DNA of 64,000 bases, from contig JACJNX010000016.1 in NCBI GenBank assembly GCA_014695255.1, forward strand, positions 124,001 through 188,000, read 5' to 3'. The stretch's first letter is position 1, and every line of letters starts with the position of its first letter. The notes under the pieces are model-generated. The model ran no database searches and was not told where the DNA came from. It saw only the letters and a list, made by a program, of their open reading frames with translations. This document shows positions 7,810-9,206 of this stretch, piece by piece. The stretch is from Cyanobacteria bacterium FACHB-63. Lineage in GTDB: Bacteria; Cyanobacteriota; Cyanobacteriia; Leptolyngbyales; Leptolyngbyaceae. A program made the position numbers and the translations under genes.

Positions 7810-8709
7810 TCACAACTCAGCAGAACCAAACACCATTTGCACGACAAACGGCTCTCCGCCTTCTGCGTGGTAGCGATCCGCCCAGTTACGAATGATTTCA
7901 TCCAGCTCTGCGATCGCGCTTTCCACCCGATCGCTTGGAATATCCAATTCTTCTAACACGCGCATTACCCGCCCTTGACGCTGCGCCCAATCCTGCATCA
8001 AACGGAAAAATCGCGCTGTGTCCTCGATCATGACGTAGGCGCGTTCTTCGTGGTCGTCTGGAGAATAGGAAGACCGAAGGAGCGCATAAAACGGCATCCC
8101 CCAGGGTGAGTCGATGCGGGTGACAGTGCCAGAGTACAAAAGCCGTCGCTTAATATGCTCTGCCAGCGCTTCACTTATGGGCATTCGCTGTTCTTTGGGC
8201 AGATCTTCTTGCGATCGGGTATGCAGAAATTCGATCAACTCCACAAACTGAAAGGAGCTGATTAGTTGAGCATCTGGAAGATTCGGTGGCAGTTTTTGTT
8301 CGATCAGGCGCTTTTCATCTGAAGTCAAGCTTGTTCCCGGCACCCGCGATCGTCCAGGCAACCAGGAATAGTGTTCCATCCAGACGTAGGGCAACTGAAT
8401 CAAGTACCGAGGTTCTTGAGACCCTAGCATTTTGAGTAATTTGCCTTCGGTGAGGGCTTGCCGGACTTCTTCGACGATCGCTTTGACTCGTTTCGGTTCA
8501 ATATGGTGCAAATGTCCGGTCATCCGAAGATTGCCATCCTGCTCCAAATACGTCATATAAATCGCGCATTTTGCAGCCGTGGCTGCGGCATCGAGAAATG
8601 CACCATGTCGGTGTCCGCCGGTTCGCATGGCGCTAAAGGCAAGATACAACATGATCTGATCGATCGCGCTAGGGCTGAGCAATTTGATCAGATCGAGGTC
8701 ATTGGTCAT
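7810..8709 (-). CDS. hetR: HetR, master regulator of heterocyst differentiation and patterning
   Basis: A 299-residue protein from the ATG at 8709, exactly the length of Anabaena HetR. The N-terminal DNA-binding region contains [20 protein letters not shown], and Cys48, noted for dimer work, is conserved. Residues known from mutational and structural studies all line up: Ser152, Ser179, Arg223, and the C-terminal Hood-domain residues Glu253, Glu254 and Asp256 that bind the RGSGR peptide. HetR is a dimeric transcription factor that activates differentiation genes and is inhibited by RGSGR-type peptides. A patX-like gene encoding such a peptide lies 314 bases upstream on the same strand. Many non-heterocystous filamentous cyanobacteria also carry hetR, so its presence does not prove heterocysts. 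Nothing in it looks degenerate. Confidence 0.97.
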
Positions 8710-9023
8710 ATCAAGCGCCACCACTGAAACAAGAACATAGTCAAAACAGTCGTAAAGTTTAGTCTACAGTGAGAGGCTGCGATCCGTAATCGCACGGACC
8801 TTCTGTAAGTCAAAACTTTATAGTGGGAAGCCGTAGCCAAGTTTACGTTGATTTGTGTGATGGCAGCTCGCTGTTTTGAGCTTGCCCAACTTCAGCCGAA
8901 ACTCAACAGTCGAATTCTATAGCCTTTGTTTCTAGGATGGAAGGTAATTTCTGATCGGAAACAAACTCTAGCGGGGTCGTCTTCGTTCTAAAGATTTTTT
9001 TGTAAACCCTACCGCACGAAACA
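8710..9023 (-). promoter_or_regulatory. hetR upstream region between patX-like gene and hetR
   Basis: This 314-base stretch has no credible ORF. It contains a 5-bp inverted repeat (TCCGT/ACGGA, 8783-8798) and a 9-bp direct repeat (AGTCAAAAC at 8739-8747 and 8808-8816). No terminator follows the patX-like gene, so read-through into hetR is possible. In Anabaena hetR has several start sites and long leaders; this region is the natural place for such promoters, but none could be pinned down. Confidence 0.4.
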
Positions 9024-9206
9024 TCAGAGTCCGTTCGTCACATCGTCGGTGTGAATCCGTCCGCTCCCTCTGTAATCAATAGACGGCGGAACCTCTTGAG
9101 CAACTTTAAACTGAGAGGCGGAGTTATTGCTGTTTTCAGTGTGTTGACTGACAGTAATTACTCCGACAAGCGAGATAAGAAGCGCAACCAGAACTTGAGC
9201 ATTCAT
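9024..9206 (-). CDS. patX: PatX-like secreted RGSGR pattern-inhibitor peptide precursor
   Basis: A 60-residue ORF. Residues 1-20 (MNAQVLVALLISLVGVITVS) form a hydrophobic, signal-peptide-like segment. A polar Ser/Asn/Gln-rich linker follows, and the C-terminal part contains DYRGSGRIH with the exact pentapeptide RGSGR (residues 46-50). RGSGR is the active motif of PatS and the C-terminus of HetN. PatX proteins, described as ancient partners of HetR encoded next to hetR in filamentous cyanobacteria, have exactly this layout. This gene lies upstream of hetR in the same orientation. The expected mature product is an exported and processed peptide that enters neighbouring cells and inhibits HetR. 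It starts at an ATG without a clear ribosome site, behind an inverted repeat. Confidence 0.9.
   Translation of the reverse strand: MNAQVLVALLISLVGVITVSQHTENSNNSASQFKVAQEVPPSIDYRGSGRIHTDDVTNGL

Follow-up and report, generated by a model that had tools for sequence, protein, structure and literature searches.

The window, i.e. the whole stretch of 64,000 nucleotides that was analysed, derives from a filamentous cyanobacterium with Leptolyngbya-like named relatives and carries on its minus strand a small open reading frame (ORF) followed by hetR (Table 1). The small ORF is patX, a divergent copy of the known hetR-associated signal-peptide gene. A gene for an FAD-dependent oxidoreductase is located upstream of patX, and a ferredoxin-type ORF (7396-7641), which is presumably psaC-like, is located downstream of hetR. 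The HetR protein is complete, reaching 568.8 bits with the NCBIfam HetR equivalog model (cutoff 489), and contains the Pfam domains Peptidase_S48 and HetR_C; the closest named relatives are the HetR proteins of Pseudanabaenaceae LEGE 13415 (91%) and Phormidium tanganyikae (89%). With residues numbered according to a PDB alignment, R223, R250, L252, E253, E254, L255, D256 and D270 are all present. We take E253, E254 and D256 together with their neighbours to be the residues contacting the peptide, and the intactness of these three, which had been stated in a preliminary description of the locus, can be read directly in the sequence. The same description had stated that no terminator separates the two genes. 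Indeed, a simple scan of positions 7650-9450 detected no terminator-like site on the minus strand of the patX-hetR gap, and a simple consensus scan of the same positions yielded no sigma-70-type promoter. The best score of a DIF1 promoter matrix between the two genes is -6.2. A separate promoter of hetR in the gap is possible, given the conserved block in front of its start codon, though the consensus scan was empty.

Table 1 Features of the patX-hetR locus (positions in the window)
Feature	Position	Strand	Description
hetR	7810..8709	(-)	299 aa, intact; ATG at 8709
HetR C-terminal Hood domain, peptide-binding region	7822..8055	(-)	Residues 219-296; Pfam HetR_C 137.9 bits
patX-hetR intergenic region	8710..9023	(-)	314 bp; genus-conserved block adjoining the hetR ATG
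patX	9024..9206	(-)	Precursor of 60 aa with hydrophobic N-terminus and RGSGR; C-terminal tail of 10 residues
RGSGR codons AGA GGG AGC GGA CGG	9057..9071	(-)	Tyr codon directly before
DIF1-like promoter region	9228..9271	(-)	Alignment of 8 genus genomes

The RGSGR pentapeptide occupies residues 46-50 of the PatX precursor and is preceded by Tyr. Across the comparison set, RG(S/T)GR occurs in 69 copies, of which 46 follow a His and 10 a Tyr. The N-terminal signal was judged from hydropathy alone: the best 13-residue mean is 3.2, compared to a median of 2.37 for 60 PatX proteins, and the first eight residues contain neither Lys nor Arg, as is the case for 35 of the 60. The preliminary description of a 60-residue ORF with a hydrophobic N-terminus and an exact RGSGR, 314 bases from an intact hetR, is confirmed. 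The PatX proteins represented by the curated model NF047413 are likewise small precursors that begin with a hydrophobic stretch and contain RG(S/T)GR, encoded beside hetR and preceded by a DIF1-like promoter, as far as the cited passages go (Khudyakov et al. 2020, PMC7761841). All of these traits, the RGSGR motif in a small protein, the hydrophobic N-terminus, the hetR partner and the upstream DIF1-like motif, are present in the window. The window PatX differs from the known ones in its score below the model cutoff, the Tyr before RGSGR and a TCCTGA instead of a TCCGGA in the promoter.

The pairing of a patX-like gene with hetR, which had been proposed from the window, proved right, and the suggested search of related genomes recovered such a small ORF at every locus read in the order. 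An RG(S/T)GR ORF lies 314-368 bp upstream of hetR in all 8 genomes of the genus. At the level of the order, 41 of 42 genomes possess hetR, and the ORF was found 231-906 bp upstream at each of the 30 loci that were read, among which are the 8 genus loci. A comparison of the window with its nearest relative gave a dN/dS of 0.43 for patX (12 nonsynonymous and 8 synonymous changes) and of 0.058 for hetR. These data bear on the reading that the RGSGR ORF has arisen by chance. The ORF is short and its score with NF047413 is only 15.4 bits, i.e. under the cutoff of 30, which is an annotation criterion and not a defining trait of PatX. However, position, motif and promoter are repeated at every locus of the order that was read (TCCTGA in 30/30), and both the conserved alignment within the genus and the dN/dS value of patX speak for a maintained gene, making a chance reading frame very unlikely. 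We regard the ORF as patX. In a sample of the whole phylum, an RG(S/T)GR ORF was detected within 1.5 kb upstream of only 19 of 80 hetR loci (79 genomes), with some contigs ending before 1.5 kb; among the 61 loci lacking a nearby ORF, 42 belong to a single family (f7), whose loci were judged for patX adjacent to hetR only. Thus, adjacency is a trait of some families. For the group studied here the patX-hetR pair is ordinary and already known in kind.

The comparison set of 60 PatX proteins comprises distinct proteins encoded at most 1.5 kb upstream of hetR and selected by the motif, which is why the invariance of R, G, G and R in their alignment is no argument. The set leaves out one ORF without a usable start, and the chosen ATG is doubtful for two members (L155 and L028). 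Only about 9 of the 60 proteins reach the 30-bit cutoff of NF047413 and about 51 fall below it, the counts being approximate because the E-value threshold was extrapolated from one score; matches at E values up to 1 were obtained for 42 of the 60. The remark in the preliminary description that automated annotation could overlook so small a gene is consistent with these scores, and surveys relying on the model may find too few patX genes. One recent survey applied trusted model cutoffs and a signal-peptide filter to PatX, and according to the passages cited 12.0% of 474 genomes contained patP and hetR without patX (pattern 0110; PMC12756182). Since most patX genes of our set escape the current model, part of this class may be an artefact of undercounting.

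The promoter of the window patX consists of TCCTGA (9265-9260), an 18-nt spacer and GTAAAGG (9241-9235). The TCCTGA differs from TCCGGA at one position and begins 59 nt ahead of the patX start codon. It is the rule upstream of patX: TCCTGA is present in 58 of the 60 upstream regions and TCCGGA in one more, the -35 element starts 57-68 nt ahead of the chosen ATG in 58 of 59 cases, and GTAWCAG or a similar heptamer follows TCCTGA after a spacer of 18 nt (49/58) or 17 nt (9/58). When both strands of the window were scanned with a matrix built from 50 patX leaders of genomes outside the genus, this site ranked first with 16.2 bits, compared to 6.6 bits for the next one. The second half of the promoter has changed within the genus, reading GTAAAGG in 5 of 8 genomes, including the window, and GAAAAGG or GAAGAAA in the others. 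The candidate extended -10 element of the window promoter, 18 nt downstream, is GTAAAGG and not GTATCAG. PatX was reportedly described by Elhai and Khudyakov in 2018, and the DIF1 motif reportedly lies within 69 nt upstream of patX in that description.

The promoter type upstream of patX resembles the DIF+ and DIF1 promoters of Anabaena, which possess a TCCGGA-like -35 element, a short spacer and an extended -10 element, as stated in passages of two studies (PMC6133370; PMC7377430), and the window promoter deviates from Anabaena DIF1 by TCCTGA in place of TCCGGA. The DIF+ promoters are defined there by the -35 and the extended -10 element and form a class of 58, for which one mismatch to TCCGGA is permitted; the spacer of a synthetic version has 17 nt (excerpts of PMC6133370). 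The DIF1 promoters of Anabaena depend on HetZ, according to the portion of the other study drawn on here (PMC7377430). By analogy of sequence, the window promoter is a candidate for HetR/HetZ dependence. Two further elements were considered and dropped. An inverted repeat CCGTATCAG...CTGATACGG in the patX leader is striking at some loci (mean best match 5.97/9, compared to 4.88 in shuffled sequences), but by reading, GTAACAG variants occur without the matching change. A recurrent TCCTGATTGTCACTTG-like site in several genomes of the genus was rejected as a promoter, as it lies inside the start of a coding sequence at the three loci that were read.

A search for the exact element TCCTGA-N18-GTATCAG in the 42 genomes of the order identified 31 sites, compared to 7 for the reversed control. 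Thirty sites were read, the 31st having no assigned locus: 9 precede patX, 14 precede a gene for a Wza-like protein, 5 are inside ORFs, and for 2 no downstream ORF was found. In the genome from which the window is derived, the Wza-like gene is located at G000:C138:212489-214570 (loci L200 and L385) and the element at 212366-212396, which is the sole exact match in 7.2 Mb. The encoded protein is of the outer-membrane polysaccharide export type with Poly_export, SLBB and S-layer homology (SLH) domains, and the other members of this SLH-type family were assigned by similarity to it. A Wzc-like gene (Wzz and AAA_31 domains) follows on the same strand, and the same arrangement was found by reading in G002. 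Trained on patX leaders alone, a matrix yields 27.4-33.5 bits for 12 regions in front of the Wza-like gene, covering all 8 genomes of the genus. At L219 and L335 the start chosen by the script is wrong, and the likely ATG is preceded by the exact element. The promoter type shared by patX and the Wza-like gene is a fresh lead at the level of sequence and within one family; the open-access literature that was searched yielded no report of it. Single sites also precede an ORF of 983 aa that looks caspase-like by eye (L214) and an ORF of 506 aa (L213). Moreover, L224 (G407) has a promoter element of the patX type that no patX ORF follows, possibly a remnant; this genome has another patX.

The link to the Wza-like family was controlled in several ways. 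At 17 loci with other Wza-type genes from the order, no score exceeded 10.5 bits; one of these loci (L335) is the family relative with the misread start. Sixty further upstream regions of Wza-type genes, representing part of the matches listed, reached at best 9.4 bits (46 from genomes with hetR) and 1.2 bits (14 from genomes without hetR) on the coding strand; the 46 include L263, a relative of the SLH type in G061, and three more regions from the family to which the window's organism belongs. Control scores on the reverse strand reached 15.1 bits and, in the Wza set of genus and order, 17.1 bits. Scores below about 17 bits are therefore meaningless, and for this reason G061 (5.7), G403 (9.5) and the second copy in G003 (13.3) were not counted by score. 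In the phylum sample, the pattern TCCTGAT-N17-GTATCAG occurs at 19 sites in 17 of 386 genomes, compared to 4 sites for the reversed control. It is present in 8 of 80 genomes with hetR, among them G000, G290 and G186 (with the Wza gene) and G117 (with patX), and in 9 of 306 genomes without hetR. Beyond the order, the pattern therefore does not mark genomes with hetR. Two of the sites in genomes without hetR were examined (L371 and L372), scored 13.7 and 4.4 bits and were associated with no RG(S/T)GR. A comparison of coordinates also placed a Wza-type gene and hetR no more than about 6 kb apart in G100, G045, G196 and G321. Of family f11, 4 of the 7 searched genomes (genera g15 and g76) have a Wza-type gene about 6 kb or less from hetR, and the element is absent there.

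The element may alternatively represent a general promoter class, recognised for instance by an alternative sigma factor, in which case patX and the Wza-like gene would share no regulation by HetR or PatX; the identity of PatX would be unaffected. The 58 DIF+ promoters of Anabaena do form a class in the passages cited (PMC6133370), the downstream half differs in the window patX, and the simple pattern also occurs in the 9 hetR-free genomes of the phylum sample. However, a general class would be expected to mark more genes, and the exact sites of the order are few and lie mostly before members of two gene families, with one site in the whole genome carrying the window. Taken together, we give this alternative serious weight, though somewhat less than an even chance. 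Under shared regulation by the circuit, the promoters of both patX and wza may be acted on by HetR/PatX or by a DIF1 factor, for instance HetZ.

The reading that we consider probable as a whole combines the patX-hetR pair, a DIF1-type promoter, an exported peptide that binds HetR and exopolysaccharide export as an output. The promoter with TCCTGA at -35, the 18-nt spacer and GTAAAGG would drive transcription of patX. The N-terminal signal would direct the export of the precursor, and cleavage outside the cytosol would release a short peptide around YRGSGR. After uptake by cells, the peptide would bind the Hood domain of HetR and remove HetR from the DNA. The same promoter type would drive the Wza-like unit, which is wza-wzc-like in the organism's own genome, and thus the export of exopolysaccharide for the sheath, slime or hormogonium coat. 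Export, cleavage and peptide binding are assigned here in analogy to Nostoc, whose PatX hexapeptide HRGTGR binds HetR at 88 nM, abolishes DNA binding and requires export, according to the passages cited (PMC12756182). PatS and HetN of Nostoc carry the same RGSGR motif acting on HetR, but cleavage of their precursors likely takes place in the cytoplasm, whereas PatX is exported (same passages of PMC12756182). Inhibition of HetR by the window peptide is therefore a predicted activity, extrapolated from these relatives; the passages of the cited literature contain no case of HetR binding by a Tyr-led peptide.

A close described counterpart is Leptolyngbya BL0902, a non-heterocystous strain in which patX directly precedes hetR, has a predicted DIF1 promoter and has been suggested to be co-transcribed with it; the likeness is one of described gene arrangement and relates to the passages cited (PMC11298460). 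In the transcriptomes of hetR, patX and double-deletion strains, the effects of PatX were basically independent of HetR, as the authors put it in these passages (PMC11298460). Of the preliminary claim of a complete activator-inhibitor pair, the intact genes stand, whereas the claimed function goes beyond the sequence and meets the BL0902 result. The latter could mean that PatX is a real signal-peptide precursor acting mainly on a target other than HetR, with its adjacency to hetR being ancestral. Indeed, in two expression groups the double mutant behaved like the patX mutant and opposite to the hetR mutant (PMC11298460, as excerpted). However, an RG(S/T)GR ORF accompanies hetR at 30 of 30 loci read in the order, the peptide contacts of HetR are retained, and the Nostoc hexapeptide binds HetR directly (PMC12756182, passages cited), so that we consider a mainly HetR-independent PatX rather unlikely.

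By itself, the gene pair is one more case of the known patX-hetR arrangement. The role of hetR and patX in non-heterocystous filaments has been called a mystery in the parts of the BL0902 study cited (PMC11298460). The main text of that study does not contain the word polysaccharide and hence makes no mention of the Wza link. The promoter type common to patX and the Wza-like gene suggests polysaccharide export as an output of the circuit and provides a concrete second candidate target, which is testable in tractable Leptolyngbya. Judging from these promoters, exopolysaccharide export is probably one output, and we predict that, in filaments forming no heterocysts, the HetR/PatX/DIF1 circuit contributes to the control of exopolysaccharide secretion. 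More tentatively, and in our view doubtful as it stands, Leptolyngbya-type cyanobacteria, which lack heterocysts, might use the HetR-PatX-DIF1 circuit to control exopolysaccharide export as such, with patX and a Wza/Wzc unit being co-expressed from matching DIF1-like promoters and the peptide patterning secretion along the filament (sheath, slime or breakage zones); this would be the older use, upon which heterocyst patterning was built later.

Some loci outside the window show unusual arrangements. Several PatX precursors contain more than one copy of RG(S/T)GR, with five copies in L047 (2387-2629), four in L159, three in L158 and two in L375. They resemble multi-copy pheromone precursors, and no report of multi-copy PatX was found in the open-access literature that was searched. 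At L120, L128 and L129, two patX-like ORFs are arranged in tandem on the same strand, 0.6-2.8 kb upstream of a single hetR. At L166 (G212), which represents a divergent hetR lineage (62% identity), the RGSGR ORF lies about 305 bp upstream of hetR on the minus strand, opposite to hetR. Finally, G171 has two hetR-like genes on contigs C4 and C7 (L159 and L169), which are 71% and 48% identical to the window HetR, and only the first of them is preceded by an RG(S/T)GR ORF, namely the one with four copies.
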